A stretch of 20,374 bases of DNA from positions 1-20,374 of the IMG/VR virus record IMGVR_UViG_3300025767_000169; one strand, written 5' to 3'. Made by a program: the position numbers and the translations under genes. Below the pieces are notes generated by a model. It was not told the origin of the DNA, searched no databases, and saw nothing but the letters and a program-made list of their open reading frames with translations. This document shows positions 3,171 through 14,161 of the stretch, piece by piece (within the stretch, counting starts at the first letter, position 1; each line of letters begins with the position of its first letter). The DNA is from a virus.

Positions 3171-5129
3171 ATGGCAGGGTATACTAGACAATCGACATTT
3201 GCTGATGGTGATATTATCCAAGCAGCAGACTTTAATGACGAGTATAACCAACTTGTAAATAGTTTTGACAATACAACAGGCCATAAACATGATGGCACTA
3301 CAGGTGAAGGTCCGGTCATTGGTTTGATTGGTGATCCCGGTGTTGTTTCTCCTATTAACAAAGTTGTAGTAGATGATACTAATAATCGTGTCGGTGTTTT
3401 TGTAGATGCAGCAGGTGCTGGTTCATCTGTTGAACAAGTACGCTTTGAAGATGGGGTTATTGTTCCTGTAACAACTAACGACATTGACTTAGGTACAGCT
3501 TCTCTTCAATTCAAAGATGGTTACTTTGCTGGCAACCTTGAAGTAGCGGGTGTGTCTGTTGGCGGCGGTGCTTCTATTGGTACAATCCTTGACGAAGATG
3601 ATATGGTATCAGATGATGATACTGCCCTTGCTACACAACAGTCTATTAAAGCATATGTGGATGCACAGGTAACTGCACAGGACTTAGATGTTGCTGCTGA
3701 TACAGGAACGGCTGCAGTAGACTTAGACAGTCAGTCATTTACTGTAACTGGTGGTACGGGCATTGATACATCTGCTACAGGGCAAGCTGTAACTATTGAT
3801 ATTGATGCTACTGTAGCTACTCTAACGGATACGCAAACACTTACAAACAAAACTATTGATGCTGCAAGTAATACCCTTTCAAACATTGATACAACTATGC
3901 TTGCTGCAGGTGTACTCGATACTGACCTTACATCTGTATCTCTTACAGATGATACCATCCCTTCAGCTAAAGCTACAAAAGATTACATTGATACCCAGCT
4001 TACTGCGGAAGACCTAGACTTCCAAGGAGATACAGGCGGCGCACAGAGTATTGATTTAGATAGTCAGACTCTTACAATCACTGGCGGTACAGGTATTGAT
4101 ACTACAGGTTCAGCACAAACTCTTACTATTGATATTGATGCGACTGTAGCTACACTTACTGATACACAAACTTTAACAAATAAAACATTGACAAGTGCTG
4201 TACTTGACGGTACAATAAGTGGAACTTCTATTAAAGATGAAGACACTATGGTATCAGATAGTGATACACATCTTGCTACTCAACAATCAATTAAAGCATA
4301 CGTAGATACTCAAGTAGGTGGTGTTTCAACTCCTACTGGTAATGAACTAGAGAATGTTGTTGAGGACGTTACACCGCAGCTTGGTGGTGATTTAGATGTA
4401 AACGGTAATGCCATTGTTTCTGTAACTAATGGTGATATAGCAATTACACCAGACGGTACAGGTTCAGTAATCTTAGATGGTCTGTCTTACCCACAAGCAG
4501 ATGGTACTGCAGGTCAGGTTATTAAGACAGATGGTGCAGGTAACTTAACTTTTGCTAGTCCTGCTACTGGTCTTGCAGACGTTGTAGATGACACTACCCC
4601 ACAGCTAGGCGGTACACTAGATACTAATGGACAACTTGTTCAGTTCGGTGACAGTGCAAGTGCTACAGATGATCGTTTACAGTTTGGTGCTGGTCAAGAA
4701 CTAGAAATTTATCAAGACCCAAATAACAATCACAGTACTATTGTTTCTAGTGCTATTGGTGGTTTGTACATGAAGTCTGATAGTGTCGGACTACAAAGCG
4801 AAGATGGTACTAAAACTTTCGTATACGCTACAGGCGGTGGTGTATCTATCAATGACGGTTTAGGTGTAACACGATTAAAGACTACAGTAAATGGAACAGA
4901 AGCATCTGGTTATCTACAGTTTAATGATACAAGTGGTGGCAGCTTTAACTATCTTCGTTTCCAAGCACCTTCTACTGTAACAACAAATACAACATTTACC
5001 TTCCCTGATGGTGACGGTACGTCAGGTCAAGCACTTGTGACAGATGGTTCGGGTACTTTGTCATGGGATACACCTACTATTGTAGAAACTGACCCGTCTG
5101 CATTAGCATTCGCAATCGCATTAGGATAA
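3171..5129 (+). CDS. Tail fibre protein, repeat-rich shaft
   Basis: The protein has 652 residues. The ATG at 3171 has AAGGAG at 3158-3163 with a 7-base gap. The N-terminal part, with QAADFNDEYNQLVNSFD and TGHKHDG, is the usual opening of marine-phage tail fibres and probably docks to the tail. Residues about 137-385 form an imperfect tandem repeat with SIKAYVDAQ, TGGTGIDT, IDIDATVATLTDTQTLTNKT and related blocks, typical of trimeric shafts. TPQLGGDLD and TPQLGGTLD (residues about 401 and 476) form a second repeat pair. The C-terminal part contains FPDGDGTSGQALVTDGSG, a common closing module of such fibres. No intramolecular chaperone or peptidase domain is recognised. The gene is followed by a promoter and the small tip genes, which suggests that it is the arm carrying or neighbouring those tips. 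Confidence 0.8.
   Translation: MAGYTRQSTFADGDIIQAADFNDEYNQLVNSFDNTTGHKHDGTTGEGPVIGLIGDPGVVSPINKVVVDDTNNRVGVFVDAAGAGSSVEQVRFEDGVIVPVTTNDIDLGTASLQFKDGYFAGNLEVAGVSVGGGASIGTILDEDDMVSDDDTALATQQSIKAYVDAQVTAQDLDVAADTGTAAVDLDSQSFTVTGGTGIDTSATGQAVTIDIDATVATLTDTQTLTNKTIDAASNTLSNIDTTMLAAGVLDTDLTSVSLTDDTIPSAKATKDYIDTQLTAEDLDFQGDTGGAQSIDLDSQTLTITGGTGIDTTGSAQTLTIDIDATVATLTDTQTLTNKTLTSAVLDGTISGTSIKDEDTMVSDSDTHLATQQSIKAYVDTQVGGVSTPTGNELENVVEDVTPQLGGDLDVNGNAIVSVTNGDIAITPDGTGSVILDGLSYPQADGTAGQVIKTDGAGNLTFASPATGLADVVDDTTPQLGGTLDTNGQLVQFGDSASATDDRLQFGAGQELEIYQDPNNNHSTIVSSAIGGLYMKSDSVGLQSEDGTKTFVYATGGGVSINDGLGVTRLKTTVNGTEASGYLQFNDTSGGSFNYLRFQAPSTVTTNTTFTFPDGDGTSGQALVTDGSGTLSWDTPTIVETDPSALAFAIALG
3579..4325 (+). 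repeat. Imperfect tandem repeat in tail-fibre shaft
   Basis: Three related coding units occur at about 3579-3860, 3945-4196 and, as a partial unit, 4221-4325. Each begins with an acidic SDDDT-like box and IKAYVDxQ. The first two continue through LDSQ, TGGTGIDT and TDTQTLTNKT. The nucleotide sequence has diverged at third codon positions, so the repeat is old or under protein-level selection. Confidence 0.8.
4188..4216 (+). promoter_or_regulatory. Possible internal promoter in fibre gene
   Basis: TTGACA at 4188-4193, a 17-base spacer, then TACAAT at 4211-4216. This is 11 of 12 consensus bases at optimal spacing, and the upstream bases are A/T-rich. It lies inside coding sequence and could be coincidental. 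Transcription would begin near 4223. Confidence 0.3.
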
Positions 5130-5532: not shown

Positions 5533-5547
5533 GGAATAAGATATAAT
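5519..5547 (+). promoter_or_regulatory. Second perfect -35/-10 pair, overlapping a start codon
   Basis: TTGACA at 5519-5524, a 17-base spacer, then TATAAT at 5542-5547. The -35 lies in the last codons of the gene at 5188 and the last two bases of the -10 are the first two of the ATG at 5546-5548. Transcripts would start near 5554, inside the anchor gene, and so could serve only the genes from 6058 onward. The match is 12 of 12, but function is uncertain because the site is constrained by two coding regions. Confidence 0.5.
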
Positions 5548-6061
5548 GGCATATCTTGGTAATCATCCTTCTGTATCTTATAGCACAGTATCCTATCAGG
5601 ATTTAACTGGTGGCACTGGTACAGGATTTACACTTGACTACCCTGCAGGTACTCCTCAAGATATTGAAGTATTTGTAAACAATGTTCGCCAAGAACCGGG
5701 CGTTGCTTATACGGTTAGTGGTACTAGCCTTACCATGACAGGCAGCATTGTAGCTACGGATGATTTCTATGTCGTGTTCCAAAGCAAAGCCCAGCAGACT
5801 ATTACACCGGGTCTAGGCACAATTACACAGGCAATGTTTGCACCGGGGCTGTCTCTTGGCGCAGGTTACTTCCAAGGGGATAACGGTGCGACAGGTGACA
5901 CAACAAATGGTAAAGCTGATATCTTCCGTGTACATGAGCAAGAATTGAATACTAATACTACAATTGCCGCAACAGACAATGCTTTGTGTGCTGGGCCATT
6001 GACAATCGCAACAGGGGTAACGCTGACGGTAACAACCGGCGGTAATCTGGTGATAGCATGA
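5546..6061 (+). CDS. Tail-tip anchor protein, cassette 1
   Basis: The protein has 171 residues. AAGGA at 5531-5535 lies about 10 bases before the ATG. The N-terminal part (MAYLGNHPS, then DIEVFVNNVRQ and YTVSGTSLTMTG) is a small beta domain common at the start of marine-phage tail fibres. Residues about 88-105 contain TPGLGTITQAMFAPG, a familiar linker. The C-terminal part, with TIAATDNALCAGPLTIATG, resembles the tip domain that closes many tail fibres. The gene at 9052 shares this N-terminus and the C-terminal AGPxT block, so the two are paralogues. Its stop overlaps the next start (ATGA at 6058-6061), with GGTGA at 6049-6053 as ribosome site. It probably joins the tip proteins to the fibre or tail; this role is inferred. 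Confidence 0.65.
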   Translation: MAYLGNHPSVSYSTVSYQDLTGGTGTGFTLDYPAGTPQDIEVFVNNVRQEPGVAYTVSGTSLTMTGSIVATDDFYVVFQSKAQQTITPGLGTITQAMFAPGLSLGAGYFQGDNGATGDTTNGKADIFRVHEQELNTNTTIAATDNALCAGPLTIATGVTLTVTTGGNLVIA

Positions 6062-6447
6062 GTGAACTAAGAACAGACACAATCACTGCCAGCGATGGCA
6101 CAAGTCCTGTCACGCTGACGAAGCAGAGTGCGCCAAAGGCGTGGTTAAGTTATGACCAAAGCGTACCAACTGTTAATGACAGCTTTAACCAAAGTTCAAC
6201 CACAGACGTTTCCGTGGGAAGATATAACTTAAACTTTACCAACAGTATGACGAATAAACATTATTCGGTGGCGGGTGTGGGTGCTTCTACGGTTATTTTT
6301 TGTCAGAGAACTACTGATAATAACGCAACCAATGCAAGTTCAGCATCATCCTGTAGGGTTGAATCATTCTATTTCACAGGGTCTTCTTTTGTTAATTACT
6401 ATGATTCAAAACCAACAACTATGGTTGTTAACGGAGACTTAGCATGA
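6058..6447 (+). CDS. Small tail-tip module A (slot 1, cassette 1)
   Basis: The protein has 129 residues. The N-terminal 30 residues carry DGTSPVTLTKQSAPKAW, nearly identical to the corresponding part of the gene at 9510 (DGTSPVELTKQSAAKAW). The middle follows the pattern shared by the whole family: a Lys-Ala-Trp box, DSFNQSSTTD, then YNLNFTNSM. After about residue 70 the sequence has no clear similarity to its paralogues. It ends in NGDLA. The start overlaps the stop of the anchor gene, and its own stop overlaps the start at 6444, so translation is coupled on both sides. A role as a receptor-contacting tip protein with a conserved docking end and a variable outer end is inferred. Confidence 0.6.
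   Translation: MSELRTDTITASDGTSPVTLTKQSAPKAWLSYDQSVPTVNDSFNQSSTTDVSVGRYNLNFTNSMTNKHYSVAGVGASTVIFCQRTTDNNATNASSASSCRVESFYFTGSSFVNYYDSKPTTMVVNGDLA
6433..6447 (+). promoter_or_regulatory. Coupled junction: GGAG in Gly-Asp codons, ATGA overlap
   Basis: GGAG at 6433-6436 encodes part of Gly-Asp near the end of module A and lies 7 bases before the ATG at 6444, which overlaps the TGA at 6445-6447. Confidence 0.75.
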
Positions 6448-6875
6448 GTGAGATAAAAGTAGACAACCTCAACGGCAAGACCTCCGCTGGTGACATTACT
6501 GTTACATCTGAAGGTGGTGCGGCGACTATGCAGTTGCAGCAGGGGTTGGCGAAGGCTTGGGCAAGTTTTAATCAAGTTGGCACAAATTCAATAAATGACA
6601 GTTTGTCCGTTTCAACTTTAAGTGATTTAGGGACAGGATTAACGCAAATAAATATAACGAACTTGTTTTCAACAAGTAATTACACAACTTCTGGTAGTAC
6701 CGTAGGTTCTACACAAAGTTGGGCTAGCACTTCTATGGTGGCAAATGGAAATGGAAATGACGCAAATACAACAACATATTATAGAATAGCTTGTCGTGAT
6801 ACTTTTCCTTCTAACAGTGGTACTTCTAGGGACTTTTCAAAAGTAAGCTGTGTAAATAACGGAGACCTCGCATAA
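6444..6875 (+). CDS. Small tail-tip module B (slot 2, cassette 1)
   Basis: The protein has 143 residues. Its N-terminal segment, KVDNLNGKTSAGDITVT followed by LQQG, pairs specifically with the gene at 9890 (KVDALQGITSAGDITIT, LQDG). The family boxes follow: LAKAWASFNQ, NDSLSVSTLSDLGTG and a strand-rich segment. The outer part from about residue 80 is rich in Ser, Thr and Asn and contains two Cys (ACRD, SCVN). It ends in NNGDLA. The start overlaps the previous stop and its stop overlaps the start at 6875 (TAATG). The function is inferred from the array context only. Confidence 0.6.
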   Translation: MSEIKVDNLNGKTSAGDITVTSEGGAATMQLQQGLAKAWASFNQVGTNSINDSLSVSTLSDLGTGLTQINITNLFSTSNYTTSGSTVGSTQSWASTSMVANGNGNDANTTTYYRIACRDTFPSNSGTSRDFSKVSCVNNGDLA

Positions 6876-6877
6876 TG
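6861..6877 (+). promoter_or_regulatory. Coupled junction: GGAG in Gly-Asp codons, TAATG overlap
   Basis: GGAG at 6861-6864 lies 10 bases before the ATG at 6875, whose A is the last base of the upstream TAA. The same bases encode the terminal Gly-Asp-Leu-Ala of module B. Confidence 0.75.
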
Positions 6878-7267
6878 GCTGGAAAAATTATAGCAGATCA
6901 AATCGAACACAGCACCGCAGGTTCTCTGGATACGTCTTATGTGGTGAATGGTAGTGCGAAGGCTTGGGTTCGGTTTAACGGCACTGGTACTTTAGCGGTT
7001 AATAAAAGTCTAAACACAAGTTCGGTTTCGGATATTGGTACTGGCAATTATGACCATAACTACACATCGTCTTTTTCGGATGCTGTTTATAATTACGTTC
7101 ACGGTGCAAAAGACGCTGACGATGGTCTTGGTATTCCTACGCTTGGTTCAGACCCAAGAGTGTCTGACACAACTTCAAAAGTCCGTTTGATTCATAATTA
7201 CCCCACCAATATAGGTTTTTATGATGGAGTTGCAATTTGCAATAATATATTCGGAGACTTAGCCTAA
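6875..7267 (+). CDS. Small tail-tip module C (slot 3, cassette 1)
   Basis: The protein has 130 residues. The segment SYVVNGSAKAWVRF pairs specifically with the gene at 10291 (EYVANGSAKAWINF). An 18-base stretch at 6950-6967 is identical to 10369-10386, which supports direct descent or exchange. Family boxes: NKSLNTSSVSDIGTG and YDHNYTSSFSD. The outer half, with several charged and aromatic residues, is unlike the paralogues. It ends in FGDLA. Both ends are translationally coupled (TAATG at the start and at the end). Docking by the N-terminus and receptor contact by the C-terminus are inferred. Confidence 0.6.
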   Translation: MAGKIIADQIEHSTAGSLDTSYVVNGSAKAWVRFNGTGTLAVNKSLNTSSVSDIGTGNYDHNYTSSFSDAVYNYVHGAKDADDGLGIPTLGSDPRVSDTTSKVRLIHNYPTNIGFYDGVAICNNIFGDLA

Positions 7268-7269
7268 TG
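7253..7269 (+). promoter_or_regulatory. Coupled junction: GGAG in Gly-Asp codons, TAATG overlap
   Basis: GGAG at 7253-7256 lies 10 bases before the ATG at 7267, which shares its A with the TAA ending module C. Confidence 0.75.
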
Positions 7270-7743
7270 ACCCAGACACCACAGTTCAAAGGCACTCACC
7301 TATTTGACCGTCTGTGCTGGGCAAAGGAAAACCTTGAGCCACATCAGTCAGACTATCGGGTGGTTTATGAGGACAGCGTTGATGAGTGCGCCAAGATACT
7401 TGTGCCTGACCCTAACTGGATGGCGTGTGCATTGCAGGGCGGTATCCTGCCACCAGTGTGGGTGTATCACGAACTGGCAAAGGATGAGGCACAGCCTGAC
7501 TTTAAGAAGCACACCAGAGGTTACTTGCTGCACAACACAGAACCCGTAGGGGCAATGACAGAAGAAGAAGCGATTGAATACCTAATTATGAAAGATTGCC
7601 CGCAGCATGTGTGGCGCAATTGGGATACAGGCAACAAACCTAAGATGGTTATCTGCCGCAAGGAACAGTTACCAAGCACACGTGAGTGGCGCAATGCTTG
7701 GAAAATAACTGAAGAACTCAGCGTCACTGATTTAGCAGCATAG
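7267..7743 (+). CDS. Unrecognised protein with R-x-W-R-N-A-W motif, possible tail assembly factor
   Basis: The protein has 158 residues and is charged and soluble in character, unlike the Ser/Thr/Asn-rich tip proteins beside it. It contains aromatic and acidic stretches (DSVDECAKILVPDPNWM, GGILPPVWVYHEL) and near the C-terminus PSTREWRNAWKI. The motif Arg-x-(Trp or Phe)-Arg-(Asn or Gly)-Ala-Trp recurs in the next gene. Small proteins with this motif are frequent next to tail fibre genes in marine phages, and I read them as assembly chaperones or fibre accessory factors. There is no signal peptide or membrane segment. The start overlaps the stop of module C, and the stop is followed by AGGAG at 7743-7747 for the next gene. 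The function is inferred from motif and place. Confidence 0.5.
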   Translation: MTQTPQFKGTHLFDRLCWAKENLEPHQSDYRVVYEDSVDECAKILVPDPNWMACALQGGILPPVWVYHELAKDEAQPDFKKHTRGYLLHNTEPVGAMTEEEAIEYLIMKDCPQHVWRNWDTGNKPKMVICRKEQLPSTREWRNAWKITEELSVTDLAA

Positions 7744-8166: not shown

Positions 8167-8628
8167 ATGGCACTTAGTAAGATTAAAGACGAGTCAACAG
8201 ACGGCAGTATTGCTGGCGGTAAGGTGTTGCAGGTTGTGCAGGGGACTACTTTGTTTGGTACAACTGTATCTAATGATACCTATGTTGCAACTACCCTCAC
8301 GGCTACAATTACACCTACAAGCGCATTAAACAAAATATTAGTCTTCGGTCAAGGTTTTGCTGTTGCAAACCAAAGCCAAGCACAACCTCAAATAAAATTA
8401 TATAGAAACGGTTTAGATATTTCTCCGGTAAATTACGGTTTTGGTAATATATATTCTAATAACGGTGGGTATAACGAAGGTATGTTGGTATTTTCATTGC
8501 TTGATTCACCTTCTTCTTCTTCTGCAACTACATACACAATTTATTTGAGAAACAACAACGTTGGTAACGCTAGCTTTGGCGCAGGAGATAGATATTCTGT
8601 TATTACCCTAATGGAGATTGCCGGATGA
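8167..8628 (+). CDS. Tail-tip/receptor-binding-like protein
   Basis: The protein has 153 residues, with a ribosome site at GGAG 8157-8160. It opens with ALSKIKDESTDGSIAGGKVLQ, a leader seen in many marine-phage tip proteins, then TTLTATITPTSALNKILVFG, a strand pair typical of small beta-sandwich tip proteins. The remainder is rich in Asn, Tyr and Ser (YGFGNIYSNNGGYNEG, SSSSATTYTIYLRNN). It lacks the Lys-Ala-Trp box of modules A to F and so belongs to another family. GGAG at 8613-8616 near its 3' end precedes a 9-codon ORF whose ATG overlaps this stop. The role in host recognition is inferred from composition and position. Confidence 0.55.
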   Translation: MALSKIKDESTDGSIAGGKVLQVVQGTTLFGTTVSNDTYVATTLTATITPTSALNKILVFGQGFAVANQSQAQPQIKLYRNGLDISPVNYGFGNIYSNNGGYNEGMLVFSLLDSPSSSSATTYTIYLRNNNVGNASFGAGDRYSVITLMEIAG

Positions 8629-8654
8629 CCTTAATTTTAGACACACAGGAGTAA
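8625..8654 (+). pseudogene. Nine-codon coupled ORF, possible relic of a tip module
   Basis: The ORF reads MTLILDTQE and then TAA at 8652-8654. Its ATG overlaps the stop of the gene at 8167 (ATGA at 8625-8628) and has GGAG at 8613-8616 with an 8-base gap. Its last codons contain the AGGAG (8647-8651) used by the gene at 8659. Many marine tail-tip proteins begin MTLxLDG, so this may be the truncated head of a deleted gene, or a short coupling ORF kept to pass ribosomes on. Confidence 0.35.
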
Positions 8655-8658
8655 ACAA

Positions 8659-9042
8659 ATGGCATCAATATCAGAAGCCTTAACCGAACTAGGCATCACC
8701 GAATGGGTACTCCGTGGCGAACCAACCACTGAGGCTGAGTTCAACGAGATGTTCCGTAAAGTAACTGGTGCGGATGCTAATGGCAGTGCTATTGAATCCT
8801 CCACACCCAGCGACTTTGGCGTAACTTGGTCACAGGTATCGGCTAAGAAAACAGAACTTGTTAATGCAGAGCCTATGCGCTTGCTTCGTGAGGAACGAAA
8901 CCGTTTGATTGCAGAAACAGATTGGTGGGCATCAAGTGACCTTACTATGACATCTGCACAGACAGCATATCGCCAAGCATTACGAGACATTACATCCAGT
9001 GCCACATCACTAGACGATGTTACTTGGCCTACGAAACCATAA
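8659..9042 (+). CDS. Phage tail assembly chaperone (Phage_tail_APC-like)
   Basis: The protein has 127 residues. AGGAG at 8647-8651 lies 7 bases before the ATG. The C-terminal half carries the family signature in order: LLREERNRLIAETDWWASSD (residues about 75-94), then AYRQALRDI (about 105-113) and a terminal VTWPTKP. This Arg-xx-Arg-Asn-xx-Leu-Ile-xx-Thr-Asp-Trp to Tyr-Arg-Gln-x-Leu-Arg-Asp to Trp-Pro layout is what I know as the tail assembly chaperone family found at the end of many tail fibre operons. The N-terminal half (ALTELGITEWVLRGEPTTE) is less conserved. The product should act in the host cytoplasm during assembly of fibres or tips. It separates the two tip cassettes. Confidence 0.7.
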   Translation: MASISEALTELGITEWVLRGEPTTEAEFNEMFRKVTGADANGSAIESSTPSDFGVTWSQVSAKKTELVNAEPMRLLREERNRLIAETDWWASSDLTMTSAQTAYRQALRDITSSATSLDDVTWPTKP

Positions 9043-9051
9043 GGAAGAACG

Positions 9052-9513
9052 ATGGCATATATAGGTAAATCCCCACAGAACGGTGTTCGTAACCGGTACA
9101 TCTACCAAGCTACTGCTGGTCAGACTACCTTTACTGGTAGTGACGCAGACAGTAAAGTGCTTACATACACAGATGGCCTATACATTGACGTATATCAAAA
9201 TGGTGTTTTGCTAAAACCTAATACTGACTATACTGCTACTAGCGGTACAAGTATTGTACTCACTGCCTCTGCTAGTTTAAATGACGTAGTTGAGATGATT
9301 GTTTATGACATCTTTTCTGTAGCTAATACTTATACTAAAGCACAGAGTGATGAACGCTACCCATTCAAGGGTAATGACAGCATCATCCGTTTGAACGGTC
9401 AGACTATCAGCGCAGACATTACGATTGACAGTGATGAGAATGGTGTATCCGCTGGACCTATCACACAGGACAATGCCACTGTCACTGTTAATGGATATTG
9501 GAGTATCGTATGA
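9052..9513 (+). CDS. Tail-tip anchor protein, cassette 2
   Basis: The protein has 153 residues. AAGGA follows directly on the previous stop, before the ATG at 9052. The N-terminus (MAYIGKSPQNGV, then YIDVYQNGVLL and YTATSGTSIVLTAS) matches the anchor at 5546 (MAYLG, DIEVFVNNVRQ, YTVSGTSLTMTG). The middle has TYTKAQSDERYPFKGNDSI, a common fibre linker with a Tyr-Pro-Phe box. The C-terminus (DENGVSAGPITQDNATVTVNG) matches the AGPLT tip block of cassette 1. Its stop overlaps the next ATG (9510), and GGAG at 9500-9503, inside the Trp-Ser codons, is the ribosome site. Duplication of the cassette 1 anchor is the simplest reading. Confidence 0.65.
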   Translation: MAYIGKSPQNGVRNRYIYQATAGQTTFTGSDADSKVLTYTDGLYIDVYQNGVLLKPNTDYTATSGTSIVLTASASLNDVVEMIVYDIFSVANTYTKAQSDERYPFKGNDSIIRLNGQTISADITIDSDENGVSAGPITQDNATVTVNGYWSIV

Positions 9514-9890
9514 CCAGCGTATTGAATGTAGATAGCATTGCGGCAAAGGACGGTACGTCACCTGTTGAGTTGACTAAGCAGAGTGCGGCAAAAGCGTGGA
9601 GCAAGTTAAACGGTACTGGAACAATTAGTTTATATGATTCATTCAATATATCTTCTGTCGCAGATAATGGGACGGGAGATTACACGCACACAATGACATC
9701 GGCTATGTCTAACGCAAACTATTCTCATACTTTTACTGCTCGAACTTATTTTGCAGTCTTTAGAGATGGTCAAACGGCAACCACTACAACCTATCGCATA
9801 GGCCACATTTACAATGATGGTGGTGGTGGCAACTTTGGATATTCAGACGGAAGCTATATCTCCGCAAATATTATAGGAGACCTAGCATAA
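9510..9890 (+). CDS. Small tail-tip module D (slot 1, cassette 2)
   Basis: The protein has 126 residues when started at ATG 9510, which has GGAG 6 bases upstream and overlaps the stop of the anchor gene; an in-frame TTG at 9498 is less likely. The N-terminus shares DGTSPV, LTKQSA and KAW with module A at 6058. Family boxes follow: YDSFNISSVADNGTGDY and MTSAMSN. The outer part is glycine- and tyrosine-rich (IYNDGGGGNFGYSDGSY) and unlike module A. It ends in IIGDLA. It is coupled to the next gene by TAATG at 9888-9892. It is inferred to occupy the same position as module A on a second tip. Confidence 0.6.
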   Translation: MTSVLNVDSIAAKDGTSPVELTKQSAAKAWSKLNGTGTISLYDSFNISSVADNGTGDYTHTMTSAMSNANYSHTFTARTYFAVFRDGQTATTTTYRIGHIYNDGGGGNFGYSDGSYISANIIGDLA

Positions 9891-9894
9891 TGGC
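9873..9894 (+). repeat. 22-bp direct repeat, copy 1 (module junction)
   Basis: An exact 22-base repeat of 10274-10295. It contains AGGAG (9875-9879), the terminal Asp-Leu-Ala codons of module D, the TAA at 9888-9890 and the ATG at 9890 of module E. It therefore acts as stop, ribosome site and start together. Confidence 0.8.
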
Positions 9895-10291
9895 GAGTAT
9901 TCTTAAAGTAGATGCGCTACAAGGCATCACATCAGCGGGTGATATCACGATTACCAATGGCACGACAACACAGAAGTTGCAAGACGGCGTTGTATCTACA
10001 TATTCTCTGTATGACCAGCAAAATACTACGGTTGATATGAGCATAAACGTCACTAGCATCACAGATAGTGCCACAGGAAGATACGGACTAAATTTATCCA
10101 ATAACTACACTACTGCTAAACAATATATCATTGGGCATAGCGCACAATCTTGGTTTTCTAATGCAGGTGCAGACACTTCACCTCTATATGGCGTATCAAC
10201 TGCAAGTGTTTTGGAGTTTATTCATGTAGAAGGTGGCACTACAAGAGACACGCAGTATAATGCGGATAGTGTGATAGGAGACCTAGCATAA
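9890..10291 (+). CDS. Small tail-tip module E (slot 2, cassette 2), flanked by direct repeats
   Basis: The protein has 133 residues. KVDALQGITSAGDITIT and LQDG pair it with module B at 6444. The Lys-Ala-Trp box of the family is replaced by STYSLYDQ, which makes this the most divergent member. DMSINVTSITDSATGRY and LNLSNNYTTA match the later family boxes. The outer half (HSAQSWFSNAGADTSPLYG) has no similarity to module B. It ends in VIGDLA. Start and stop are both of the TAATG type. The gene lies exactly between two copies of a 22-bp direct repeat 401 bp apart, so one recombination step could remove or add it as a unit. Confidence 0.6.
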   Translation: MASILKVDALQGITSAGDITITNGTTTQKLQDGVVSTYSLYDQQNTTVDMSINVTSITDSATGRYGLNLSNNYTTAKQYIIGHSAQSWFSNAGADTSPLYGVSTASVLEFIHVEGGTTRDTQYNADSVIGDLA

Positions 10292-10295
10292 TGGC
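10274..10295 (+). repeat. 22-bp direct repeat, copy 2 (module junction)
   Basis: Exact copy of 9873-9894, including AGGAG at 10276-10280, the Asp-Leu-Ala codons ending module E, the TAA at 10289-10291 and the ATG at 10291. Confidence 0.8.
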
Positions 10296-10689
10296 AAGCG
10301 AACTTAGAGTAAACACCCTAAAGGATGCCGCTGGGAACAACAGCGTGGGTATGGAGTATGTTGCCAACGGTAGTGCGAAGGCTTGGATTAACTTCACAAG
10401 TATCTCAAGTACATCAGCTAGAGATTCACTTAATCACGCAAGTTTAACGGACAATGGAACAGGTGACACTACGTTAAATTTTACCAACTCTTTAAGTAAC
10501 AACGATTATTGTTTTTCTGGTAATGCCCAAAGAAATGACCCAACTGAGGATGCAGAAATGACCTTGTATCAAGACCAAGACAGTTCTTTAGCTACTAATA
10601 GTATGCGTGTTATTACTAAAAAAAGTTCTGTCACAGACCAAATAGACGTTCTTGGTGGGTTTGCTAGTGCAACAGGAGACCTCACATGA
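10291..10689 (+). CDS. Small tail-tip module F (slot 3, cassette 2)
   Basis: The protein has 132 residues. EYVANGSAKAWINF pairs it with module C at 6875, including an identical 18-base stretch at 10369-10386. Family boxes: RDSLNHASLTDNGTGD and LNFTNSLSNNDY. The outer half is acidic and Ser-rich (RNDPTEDAEMTLYQDQDSS). It ends in ATGDLT, a variant of the usual ending. AGGAG at 10674-10678 lies 7 bases before the ATG of the following gene, and that ATG overlaps this stop. The function is inferred from the array. Confidence 0.6.
   Translation: MASELRVNTLKDAAGNNSVGMEYVANGSAKAWINFTSISSTSARDSLNHASLTDNGTGDTTLNFTNSLSNNDYCFSGNAQRNDPTEDAEMTLYQDQDSSLATNSMRVITKKSSVTDQIDVLGGFASATGDLT
10675..10689 (+). promoter_or_regulatory. 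Coupled junction: GGAG in Gly-Asp codons, ATGA overlap
   Basis: GGAG at 10675-10678 lies 7 bases before the ATG at 10686, which overlaps the TGA at 10687-10689. Confidence 0.75.
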
Positions 10690-11789
10690 GTAAAGCAGCA
10701 GAACTAGCCGCACTGATTGGTTCGCAGTCGGCGTTGTCAAACCGGAACATGATTATCAATGGTGCGATGCAGGTGGCACAGCGGGGAACATCATTTAGTT
10801 CACTAAGTGCAAGCGCATACACTTGCGACAGGTGGCAGCTACAAGTAGCTGGTGCGGGAAGGGGAACTGTTACACAAGAAAGCAGTGGTGGCCCTGCTAG
10901 TCTTAAAGATAATTTTTTGCGTGTCACTGTGGCAACCGCTGATAGCAGCGTGGCCTCAAGTGATATGCAAGTGTTAAAGCAAGTTATAGAGGGTCATGTC
11001 GCAGCGTTTACAGATGCTGGAACTTCAGACGCAAAGACGCTTACATTGTCCTTTTATGTTCGTTCTAGTGTGACTGGAACTTTTAGTGCAACTTTGTACA
11101 CAAACTTTAGCAGCCCTAGTGCAGTTTCGTATCCTGCTGAATACACAATTTCATCTGCAAACACTTGGGAACAAAAAACAATTACGTTTCCAGCTTTTAC
11201 AACGAGTTCATCACTTGTTTCAAGCGGATATACAACGGGTGAGTTTTACCAAGTTCGTTTCGCTTTAATGGCTGGTTCTGATAACACAGGGACAGCTAAT
11301 CAATGGAATAGTGCAAACGACTTTGCTTCAACAAATCAAACAAATCTTTTTGCAACATTAAGTGCAACTTGGGATATTACAGGCGTACAGCTAGAAGTCG
11401 GCGAGACAGCCACACCGTTTGAACACCGCAGCTTTGGCGATGAGTTGGCTAGGTGTCAGCGGTATTATGAAAGCATTCAAGTAATGAATGGGTATTTTTC
11501 AACAGGTCAAGCGTTTACTTCTTCACAAGCCGCAGGTGCTACTTTAAATTTCAAAGTAACAAAAAGGGCTATTCCAACATTAACAGTTCCTGCTGCTGGA
11601 AATACATCAGGCACTTGGGGGTTTGTAGGAAGTAATGGGAGTTATGCTACTATAGGCGGTCATTCGACTTACAGCACAGTGGATTTTTTTAGCATAGAGG
11701 CGAGTGGCTACAGCGGTCTTGGCGCAGGAAATGCTTCTATGATTTATTCTAGTGGGGCTACTGAAGCAAAAGCAGATGCGGAGTTATAA
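10686..11789 (+). CDS. Tail-tip adhesin with carbohydrate-binding-like beta domain
   Basis: The protein has 367 residues. The segment SNRNMIINGAMQVAQRGTS followed by AYTCDRWQ is a well-known opening of marine-phage tail proteins. The next 180 residues alternate short strands (TLTLSFYVRSSVTGTFSATL, WEQKTITFPAF, EFYQVRFALMAG) and read as a jelly-roll like a carbohydrate-binding module. Residues about 230-260 carry ITGVQLEVGETATPFEHRS and ELARCQRYY, the usual end of that domain. The last about 105 residues (from YYESIQVMNG) are Ser/Gly/Thr-rich and probably the variable receptor-contacting end. The gene closes cassette 2 and is coupled to module F by ATGA. Sugar binding is inferred from the fold pattern; no binding residues can be assigned. 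Confidence 0.65.
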   Translation: MSKAAELAALIGSQSALSNRNMIINGAMQVAQRGTSFSSLSASAYTCDRWQLQVAGAGRGTVTQESSGGPASLKDNFLRVTVATADSSVASSDMQVLKQVIEGHVAAFTDAGTSDAKTLTLSFYVRSSVTGTFSATLYTNFSSPSAVSYPAEYTISSANTWEQKTITFPAFTTSSSLVSSGYTTGEFYQVRFALMAGSDNTGTANQWNSANDFASTNQTNLFATLSATWDITGVQLEVGETATPFEHRSFGDELARCQRYYESIQVMNGYFSTGQAFTSSQAAGATLNFKVTKRAIPTLTVPAAGNTSGTWGFVGSNGSYATIGGHSTYSTVDFFSIEASGYSGLGAGNASMIYSSGATEAKADAEL

Positions 11790-12205: not shown

Positions 12206-14161
12206 ATGGCAATGTTTAAAGCATTTAAACCAGAAGCAATGAATAAGATTGCAAGTGCTATGGGGTATACTGGTGATATGAACCAGTTCCAGCAGTACAT
12301 TGAACAAGACCCCGCACGACAGCAACAGATGAATATGTATACTAATGCTGCTAAAACTATGGCTAAAGGCGGGTATGCACGTAAAGGATATGCAGTAGGT
12401 GGTACTGTTATCAATCCATCAGGCACACAAGCTGCTACCCCCGTTGCTGTAGCACCTACCACAACTCCTGCAGGTCAACCAGAGATTGGTCAGTTTTCTG
12501 TAGAGCAAATGTATCAGCCGGGATTACCTATTGGTGGTACAACTATTGCTGCTGAAACACAGACAGATACATCACAGGATATTACTGCAGGTACAGGTGC
12601 TATTACAGGACAGGTAGCAGTACCAACTGCAACAGCAGCTACAGCGCAGGCTGCTCCTGTAACTCAAACGCAAGCTAATGTAATGCAAGCCTCTGCTGCG
12701 GCTCCTGCAGTGGATGCAGCTATGAATGCTACACAGGCAGCACAAGCTAACCCACAAGACCCTCGTGCGCAGATTGCGGCTGCACAGCAGACTACTTCAT
12801 CAGTAGGTAATCTTCAGGCAGCACAGGGCAATGCTTTCCTTATCAACACCCCTATTCAGCGTAACCTACAAGCAGGTGAATTGATTAGTGGTACAGGTGT
12901 AGATGCTGCACGTGCTAGTGCATTGGCTGCACAGACAGATGCTGCTGCTGCACAGGCTAATCCTAGCCAACAGGCAATGGTACAGGATCAACTATCTGGT
13001 TTGATGAATCAGTTTGTAGGTGGTGCTACACCAGCATGGGCATCAGGTGCTATCCGTACTGCTAATGCTACTATGGCTGCACGTGGTCTCAGTGCTTCAT
13101 CTATTGCTGGACAGGCTATTGTACAGGCAGCTATGGAATCAGCTATGCCTATTGCAATGGCTGATGCTGCTACTGTAGCTAAGTTTGAATCACAGAACTT
13201 ATCTAACAAACAGCAGAGTGCAATGCTTGCTGCTGAACAACGTGCTAAGTTCATGGGTCAGGAGTTTGACCAAGAGTTTCAACAGAAGGTAATGAACGCT
13301 AGTAAGATTAGTGACATTGCTAATCAGAACTTTACAGCAGAACAGCAAGTACAGCTAGAAAATAGTCGTGCTGCTAATACAATGAACCTGCAGAACCTGT
13401 CAAACAATCAGGCTCTTGTAATGGCAGAGGCTTCTGCTTTAGCACAGCTAGATTCACAGAACCTGAATAACCGTCAAGCTACTGCTGTACAAAACGCACA
13501 AAACTTCTTGCAAGTTGATATGGCTAACCTATCTAATCAGCAACAAACAGATTTGTTTAAAGCGCAGCAGCGTGTACAATCTTTGTTTACTGACCAAGCC
13601 GCTACCAATGCTGCAGCGCAATTTAATGCATCTAGTCAGAACCAAGTTGACCAGTTCTTTGCTAGCTTGGGTTCACAGGTATCACAGTTTAATGCAACGC
13701 AACAAAATGCACAACAGCAGTTTAATGCAGGACAGACTAATACAGTAGAAAGATTTAATGCTGAACTTAATAATCAACGTGATCAATTTAATGCACAGAA
13801 CCAGCTAGTTATTGCACAAGCTAATGCACAGTGGCGTAGACAAATTGCTACAGCAGATACTGCAGCAGTTAATCGTGCTAATGAACTTAACGCTAATGCT
13901 ATCTTGGATATTAGTAAGACTGCCTATGATAATTTATGGAATTACTATAATGACACAATGGAGTGGGCTTGGACTTCTGGAGAAAATGACTCTGACAGAA
14001 TTGTTCAAATGGCTTTAGGTGAACTTTCCGCTAAAACAAGTATAGATATGCAGCAATTAAAAACCAACGCAGAGGAAAGTGGTGCTATTGGCGGTTTCTT
14101 TAGTAGCTTGTTAACTAGCCAAACTGCAGGAAGTCTAGTTGGAAAAATCTTTGGTATTTAA
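12206..14161 (+). CDS. Internal virion (ejection) protein with 11-residue repeats
   Basis: The protein has 651 residues and is very rich in Ala, Gln, Asn and Thr. Residues about 54-66 carry KGGYARKGYAVGG, a motif that recurs in marine-phage structural proteins. Residues about 70-250 are low-complexity Ala/Thr/Gln/Pro sequence. Residues about 332-560 are built of 11-residue units, with Leu, Phe or Ala recurring every 11 positions (for example Phe 473, 484, 495, 506, 517 and 528). This predicts a long right-handed coiled coil. The C-terminal part has YDNLWNYYNDTMEWAW and ends in a Gly-rich hydrophobic segment (GAIGGFFSSLLTSQTAG) that could touch membrane. By place it corresponds to the first internal core protein of T7-like phages. 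A tape-measure-like role is the alternative. Confidence 0.6.
   Translation: MAMFKAFKPEAMNKIASAMGYTGDMNQFQQYIEQDPARQQQMNMYTNAAKTMAKGGYARKGYAVGGTVINPSGTQAATPVAVAPTTTPAGQPEIGQFSVEQMYQPGLPIGGTTIAAETQTDTSQDITAGTGAITGQVAVPTATAATAQAAPVTQTQANVMQASAAAPAVDAAMNATQAAQANPQDPRAQIAAAQQTTSSVGNLQAAQGNAFLINTPIQRNLQAGELISGTGVDAARASALAAQTDAAAAQANPSQQAMVQDQLSGLMNQFVGGATPAWASGAIRTANATMAARGLSASSIAGQAIVQAAMESAMPIAMADAATVAKFESQNLSNKQQSAMLAAEQRAKFMGQEFDQEFQQKVMNASKISDIANQNFTAEQQVQLENSRAANTMNLQNLSNNQALVMAEASALAQLDSQNLNNRQATAVQNAQNFLQVDMANLSNQQQTDLFKAQQRVQSLFTDQAATNAAAQFNASSQNQVDQFFASLGSQVSQFNATQQNAQQQFNAGQTNTVERFNAELNNQRDQFNAQNQLVIAQANAQWRRQIATADTAAVNRANELNANAILDISKTAYDNLWNYYNDTMEWAWTSGENDSDRIVQMALGELSAKTSIDMQQLKTNAEESGAIGGFFSSLLTSQTAGSLVGKIFGI
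13199..13885 (+). repeat. 33-bp-periodic coding repeat (hendecads)
   Basis: About twenty consecutive 11-residue units. From residue 332 to 453 the units alternate between Leu/Phe starts (332, 354, 376, 398, 420, 442) and mostly Ala starts (343, 365, 409, 431, 453; Ser at 387), a 22-residue super-repeat with QN(L/F)xN boxes. After a 2-residue register loss the units resume at 473 with xQFNA boxes. Confidence 0.85.

Follow-up and report, generated by a model that had tools for sequence, protein, structure and literature searches.

The DNA analysed here, referred to as the window, is a virus record of 20,374 bases and represents an incomplete genome fragment without the replication-gene region of the HMO-2011 type. 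Among annotated relatives, Puniceispirillum phage HMO-2011 comes closest (77% DNA identity, in pieces that make up 34% of a 9.1-kb query), and the order of the homologous structural genes matches that of this phage. Judged from homology and gene order, the window is a fragment of an HMO-2011-type podovirus, a marine virus that infects bacteria. It holds two arrays of three small genes, here called modules: A-B-C at site 1, between the genes U and K, and D-E-F at site 2, from N to T. All of them, like the neighbouring genes described with them, lie on the plus strand.

Site 1 is preceded by U (5546-6061), a tail-fibre-like base protein that matches phrog_18673 (tail fiber) and after which the site-1 arrays of relatives also come. 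Three modules follow, each of which consists of a short N-terminal tag and a C-terminal head: A, in slot alpha1 (6058-6447; tag 6058-6135, head 6136-6444), and B, in slot beta1 (6444-6875; tag 6444-6551, head 6552-6872), were assigned from their matches to phrog_11355 (9e-16 and 4e-11, respectively) and from slot order, while C, in slot gamma1 (6875-7267; tag 6875-6958, head 6959-7264), was assigned from its phrog_11355 match and a relative of its head in locus L174. The site is closed by K (7267-7743), a conserved gene that overlaps the end of C. Homologues of K were otherwise found here in phages only, and the one in NC_023841 (46% over 78% of the query), a record whose label, Dunaliella viridis virus SI2, points to a green alga as host, suggests that this host label may merit a check.

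Between the two sites lies a further slot, delta, which is occupied in the window by a non-module tail-fibre head (8167-8628; phrog_24754, with no Pfam match) and in some relatives by module heads. The head is accompanied by a tail-fibre assembly chaperone (8659-9042; PF16778, 1e-11; phrog_4912, 2e-15), so that the region 8167-9042 forms a two-gene unit of the kind seen in the beta slots of HMO-2011, and such two-gene head units may also change slots. Site 2 begins after N (9052-9513), another tail-fibre-like base protein (phrog_18345) that precedes the site-2 arrays of relatives. The modules here are D, in slot alpha2 (9510-9890; tag 9510-9590, head 9591-9887), identified by phrog_11355 (3e-20) and by relatives of its head; E, in slot beta2 (9890-10291; tag 9890-9994, head 9995-10288), identified by phrog_11355 (5e-4) and a predicted beta-sandwich; and F, in slot gamma2 (10291-10689; tag 10291-10377, head 10378-10686), identified by phrog_11355 and a head relative in L081. 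T (10686-11789; phrog_4492, 2e-60) then fills the epsilon slot with an MSKAAELA tag and a large tail-fibre head, the same tag bearing small module heads in some relatives.

All six modules match phrog_11355 with E-values from 3e-20 to 5e-4, E being the weakest and covered over residues 40-94 only, and none of them reached the curated cut-off of any Pfam family. The description of phrog_11355 offers the label 'tail fiber protein' alone and says nothing of an organisation into slots, tags and heads. Elsewhere in the window, a tail-fibre-like gene of 652 residues (3171-5129) contains internal direct repeats (78%) at 3720-3853/4053-4186 and 3591-3671/4236-4316, and the bases 12206-14161 encode a protein of 651 residues in which Gln, Ala and Asn are abundant and QNLSN-like stretches recur; this protein matches no PHROG family.

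The preliminary description had placed exact 22-bp direct repeats around E, and these are confirmed: bases 9873-9894 and 10274-10295 both read ATAGGAGACCTAGCATAATGGC, the match stops at exactly those bases, the copies are 401 bp apart from start to start, and this sequence is the only repeated 22-mer of the window as well as its longest exact repeat. Each copy comprises the codons for I-G-D-L-A, a TAA stop that overlaps the next ATG (as TAATG) and the opening bases of the gene that follows. The first copy is the 3' joint of D, with its GDLA codons, an embedded Shine-Dalgarno GGAG and the TAA overlapping the ATG of E; the second is the 3' joint of E together with the start of F. Within 20 kb, chance would be very far from producing an exact repeat of 22 bp, and the excess is accounted for by shared functional sequence, the same type of junction closing nearly every module gene in the window (all six of A-F) and in its relatives.

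For the comparison with relatives, viral-contig loci (L007-L327) were gathered in five scans, in which they were chosen by similarity to window genes, and their modules were annotated with an HMM that had been built up from the six modules of the window. The exact 22-mer is present at only 3 of 541 distinct module junctions, and the shorter form GGAGACCTAGCATAATG ends 13% of the 516 modules that terminate in GDLA. The codons of this terminal motif are strongly biased (GGA 98%, GAC 95% and GCA 92%, against 21%, 35% and 38% elsewhere in modules), those for leucine being less constrained. The GGAG within the Gly-Asp codons is the Shine-Dalgarno sequence of the next gene, at proper spacing to its ATG, and of the 501 modules that are followed by another gene, 490 share 1 or 4 bases with it. 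The type of stop tracks the slot pair, with TAA (as TAATG) between alpha2, beta2 and gamma2, and TGA (as ATGA) at the alpha1/beta1 and gamma2/epsilon junctions. The suggestion that this was a joining sequence is therefore borne out, GDLA-stop-ATG being the standard, codon-biased joint. The identity of the two copies had also been read as a trace of exchange between them, a reading that does not hold: over 90 arrays, the two site-2 junctions of a genome have on average an exact run of 13.4 bp in common, compared with 14.0 +/- 0.4 bp in shuffled pairs (p=0.95, in a permutation that ignores phylogeny), and runs of at least 22 bp occur in 11% of within-genome junction pairs and 15% of between-genome pairs at this site. 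Homogenisation of the junction within a genome was accordingly rejected; the junction is a family consensus, a standard gene end that carries no sign of recent local exchange.

In the module genes themselves, a slot-specific N-terminal tag, about 25-38 residues long, is followed by a C-terminal head of some 100 residues. The division was set at the lysine of an A-K-x-W motif, which corresponds to HMM column 27 and is a lysine in 552 of 576 modules; a regular expression for this boundary missed 221 of the 576, and the HMM column was used instead. Tag identity amounts to 59-76% within a slot, compared with 30% across slots; the within-slot similarity is partly due to construction, since slot classes were assigned from the first 18 residues against reference tags picked by the analyst. 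The genomic order of the slot classes is not built in by this procedure, and it is nearly invariant: alpha1-beta1-gamma1 followed by alpha2-beta2-gamma2 was read in 36 loci, and the remaining ones are mostly truncations or single-slot variants of it. Outside the usual sites, L173 holds two extra modules ahead of the U gene (4054-4860). In Nostoc phage Nsp-JY18 (L328) and Microcystis phage Mel-JY33 (L331), three consecutive small genes precede a homologue of K, those of the Nostoc phage being confirmed as modules, and these cyanophages suggest that the three-slot plan extends beyond HMO-2011-type phages.

Heads behave very differently from tags. Their identity is 28-32% within a slot and 29% between slots, so that a head resembles the other heads of its own slot no more than it does any others. 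Among 536 modules, most head pairs lie near 30% identity, with 46 pairs at 50-70% and 94 at 70% or above, and 54 of these 94 close pairs join heads in different slots; likewise, 45 of the 73 head families with several members are found in more than one slot. Close pairs in the same slot are nevertheless commoner than expected (40, compared with 15.7 +/- 3.5 under shuffled labels, in a test that again disregards phylogeny), which indicates that the movement of heads is not slot-blind or that some of the sharing is vertical. At 70% identity the modules form 452 head families, from which a Chao1 estimate of about 1,600 is obtained.

Replacement of heads is also seen between closely related genomes. 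Where the N gene is at least 92% identical (59 genome pairs), 158 of 177 slot heads have been replaced, 18 kept and one is intermediate; L073 and L236, for instance, have identical N genes and tags that are 82-90% alike, and carry three unrelated heads. The proposal that the tail-tip units are exchangeable and were recently exchanged is in this respect borne out, and the exchange is extensive. The unit exchanged, however, is usually not a complete gene, as had been supposed: the tag stays with the slot, the head moves, and the junction is the 3' joint of the moving block. In 39 cross-slot pairs at 80% identity or more, DNA identity most often begins 3 bases before the K codon, or further upstream where the two tags resemble each other, and most often stops 2 bases before the end of the stop codon.

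Relatives in other slots are found for four of the six window heads, those of C, D, E and F. The head of F is 96% identical, in both amino acids and DNA (10383-10687), to the gamma1-slot head of L081, and that of C is 88% identical in amino acids and 85% in DNA (6956-7270) to a head behind an epsilon tag in L174. A scan with the head of D alone yielded seven relatives at 76% or above, one behind an alpha1 tag (L332, 92%), four behind alpha2-variant tags (L333-L335 and L337, 87%) and two behind beta1 tags (L336, 86%; L338, 76%). E is less typical, as it does not hold the consensus K-x-W at its 5' joint; its sole cross-slot relative, a head behind a beta1 tag in L167 (58% in amino acids), shares the second half of the tag as well, the common block starting at 9935, inside the tag. 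No other contig encoding the head of E was found in a head-only scan, no match to E was found in annotated phage genomes, and the heads of A and B have no relative above 50% among the collected loci. A cultured phage is also involved, the head of HMO-2011 gp40 (alpha1) being 91% identical to a beta2-slot head in L217. Nearly all of the relatives are metagenomic contigs and could hold misjoins, but the joints that they share exactly are short, at about 10-25 bp, and one of the partners is cultured. These comparisons show fixed slots with slot-specific tags, between which, as between genomes, heads have been exchanged with boundaries near two joints.

The structure predicted for E agrees with this division. 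The AlphaFold model (mean pLDDT 81) is almost entirely beta, and its predicted fold starts where the exchange block starts. Using VIA-align, residues 34-132 were matched to tailspike and fibre tips and to H-type lectins: the phiAB6 tailspike, in its C-terminal domain (Z 8.7 and 8.6 for two entries), the receptor-binding domain of the Pam1 tailspike (7.3), AP22 gp53 (6.1), an R-pyocin fibre (5.0) and Helix agglutinins (5.3). The best Z, 8.7, is close to values for which a common architecture by itself can account for a match. A Foldseek search of the model against the PDB gave no match at E-values up to 0.001. The head is thus predicted to be a lectin-like beta-sandwich tip, with a fold like those of the phiAB6 and Pam1 tailspike C-terminal domains, AP22 gp53, the lectin domain of the R-pyocin fibre and the Helix agglutinins; sequence identity to these proteins is only 5-13%, and a common fold shows no binding specificity. 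Heads of other kinds occupy the beta slots of HMO-2011, where beta-like tags are borne by gp39 and by the C1q protein gp31 (PF00386, 4e-10), each of them followed by a tail assembly chaperone of family PF16778 (gp38 and gp30, respectively).

The occurrence of exactly three slots per site, filled by overlapping genes of nearly equal length, could mean that the three coupled paralogues of a site build one obligate alpha-beta-gamma trimeric tip, and the runs of three small genes in the two cyanophages point in the same direction. This arrangement is nevertheless unlikely. Heads that share only 29% identity exchange freely between slots, and unrelated folds such as the C1q domain are found in beta slots, which argues that each slot product oligomerises alone; mixed trimers would require a universal interface. 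An obligate heterotrimer deduced from the three-per-site rule was disfavoured on these grounds.

A second alternative is the one put forward in the preliminary description, according to which homologous recombination between the 22-bp repeats deletes or inserts whole modules, so that their number varies. Reading outward from U and N gave 109 distinct site-2 arrays and 65 distinct site-1 arrays in which both ends were present. The middle slot of site 2 holds one module in 99 of the 109, one non-module head in seven and two modules in three, and is empty in none, while that of site 1 holds one module in 58 of 65 and one non-module head in seven, these being counts of distinct arrays, mostly from metagenomic contigs, and not of independent events. 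It had been proposed to look in relatives for zero, one or more modules between the repeats: exactly one gene stands at the place of E in 106 of the 109 arrays and more than one in the other three, and the class with zero is missing. A single module with a diverged junction in all relatives had been named as the contrary outcome; the slot is indeed nearly always single, while it is the junction that is conserved and the head that differs. Whole-module gain or loss is thus nearly absent, and variable copy number was rejected as a general rule.

The exact repeat speaks for this mechanism, and a few loci conform to it. An extra module in the beta region of site 2 is found in L179, L285 and L297, the first of which (672-2289) has two consecutive beta2-tagged modules with different heads, the one clear whole-module insertion of the predicted kind. 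The layouts of L187 (U-alpha1-beta2-gamma2-T, in which neither K nor N was found in between) and L265 (beta and gamma having traded sites, with beta2-gamma2-epsilon at site 1 and beta1-gamma1 at site 2) are those that a crossover at the junctions would give. All of these loci look like crossovers at module junctions, each on one metagenome contig, for which assembly error is the alternative in L187 and L265. Against the mechanism as the general source of variation stand the 109 arrays in which the slot was never found without a gene, and junctions that are no more alike within a genome than between genomes; moreover, no two heads of one locus exceed 44% identity, which indicates that internal duplication is not their source. 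As a general account, deletion and insertion of whole genes between the repeats is very unlikely.

The junction might also be no more than an embedded ribosome site of the ordinary kind, in which stop and start overlap, conserved by chance or for purely translational reasons. This is true as far as it goes, as the GGAG properly spaced to the next ATG, the GGA-GAC codon bias, the overlap of nearly all modules with the next start by 1 or 4 bases and the common GDLA ending all fit it. It accounts for the 3' junction, however, and not for the mosaic of heads and tags, nor for the codon bias at the 5' A-K joint, a place with no start site. There, the alanine before the lysine is encoded by GCG in 65% of cases (background 17%) and the lysine by AAG in 81% (background 49%), GCG-AAG being the commonest pair in every slot but epsilon, whereas the conserved motifs DSFN and TDxGTG inside the heads have codon usage near background. 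In the window, the 5' joint of F, GGTAGTGCGAAGGCTTGG (10369-10386; codons G-S-A-K-A-W), is an exact 18-mer copy of the 5' joint of C (6950-6967). The bias at this joint fits exchange through shared joint DNA, to which shared descent of the tag end could contribute. Translation by itself is thus a very improbable explanation of the whole pattern. An integron- or shufflon-like site-specific cassette system or a diversity-generating retroelement is scarcely credible despite the short repeated joints and one HMO-2011 gene annotated as an integrase, as the moving unit has one joint within coding sequence and leaves its tag behind, neither a reverse transcriptase nor a template/variable repeat pair is annotated in the HMO-2011 record (the window's own genome being incomplete), and variation consists of whole-head replacement instead of point mutation at fixed positions.

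According to these data, it is highly probable that the arrays are fixed adhesin sockets refilled with heads from a large shared pool by recombination at standard joints. The proposed plan comprises alpha1-beta1-gamma1 after the base protein U, alpha2-beta2-gamma2 after N, and the optional slots delta and epsilon. Tags remain with their slots and presumably dock the tips onto the fibre bases, while the heads are replaced from a very large pool common to all slots and to many phage genomes, each slot product most likely forming its own homo-oligomer. The block moved runs from near the A-K-x-W codons, or from higher in the tag where tags are alike, to the stop codon, and the 22-bp repeat, whose position and codon bias are observed, would function as its 3' joint. 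Since this joint encodes the C-terminal GDLA, bears the Shine-Dalgarno sequence of the next gene and overlaps its start, any head in any slot would couple translation of the next slot.

Recombination as the cause of the mosaicism is inferred from the sequence comparisons, the window having yielded no recombinase. It is postulated that heads pass between co-infecting phages through recombination, homologous or annealing, at the short conserved joints, after which functional heads would be selected. The heads would bind variable glycans or proteins of the host surface. More tentatively, and with rather less than even confidence, both joints may be kept as standard connectors, such that any head, together with the ribosome site of the next gene, fits behind any tag, each genome then being a combinatorial sample of a community-wide library of more than a thousand head types. 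Taken as a whole, the earlier interpretation is partly supported.

Exchange of a C-terminal part behind a conserved N-terminal part, the mark of a domain-swapping adhesin, is found in these modules. The swap motifs of T-even phages are reportedly internal glycine-rich islands which, unlike the joints described here, are said not to carry the ribosome site of the next gene as well. Recombination between conserved motifs exchanges the specificity of the adhesin at the distal tail-fibre locus of these phages (Tetart, Desplats and Krisch 1998, as given in PMC7468147 and PMC11414711), in what is, by these accounts, one adhesin locus and not a multi-slot array. The branched tail-spike complex of Ackermannviridae (TSP1-TSP4) provides several receptor-binding proteins per phage, whose receptor-binding domains are replaced by recombination; in one recombinant made in the laboratory, tsp4 had received this domain from an additional tsp5 (PMC11414711). 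As far as that account goes, a conserved N-terminal part sets the place in the complex and a variable C-terminal part sets the host, as would be the case here (PMC11414711). The N-terminal parts there are XD/TD domains on large tailspikes, compared with tags of about 25-38 residues and heads of about 100, and the arrays described here differ further in their overlapping genes, their two sites of three slots each and the natural occurrence of near-identical heads in many slots.

In environmental phages from the sea and from glaciers, host-recognition genes, C1q-type and tail-fibre genes included, are replaced in near-identical backbones (PMC3909814, PMC7468147). These metaviromic islands or flexible gene modules are variable regions, for which a fixed tag with a free head, movement from slot to slot and a standard joint are not described in the portions of those papers considered (PMC3909814, PMC7468147). 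Nothing describing this arrangement was found in the available parts of the literature on heterotrimeric fibres and coupled tail-fibre genes. Domain swapping in tail fibres is therefore already known, while an array of slots, tags and heads with natural slot-to-slot movement was not found described within the same sources and is, to that extent, new.

Phages of the HMO-2011 type have been counted with the most abundant viral groups of the sea (PMC9038755). Heads that are small and separable, that have defined limits and that exist in very many natural variants provide a direct handle on the host surface molecules that are recognised. The division into slot, tag and head makes it testable how a tip with several adhesins keeps working while its binding parts change, and how one stretch at the end of a gene can serve as protein, ribosome site and recombination joint at once.
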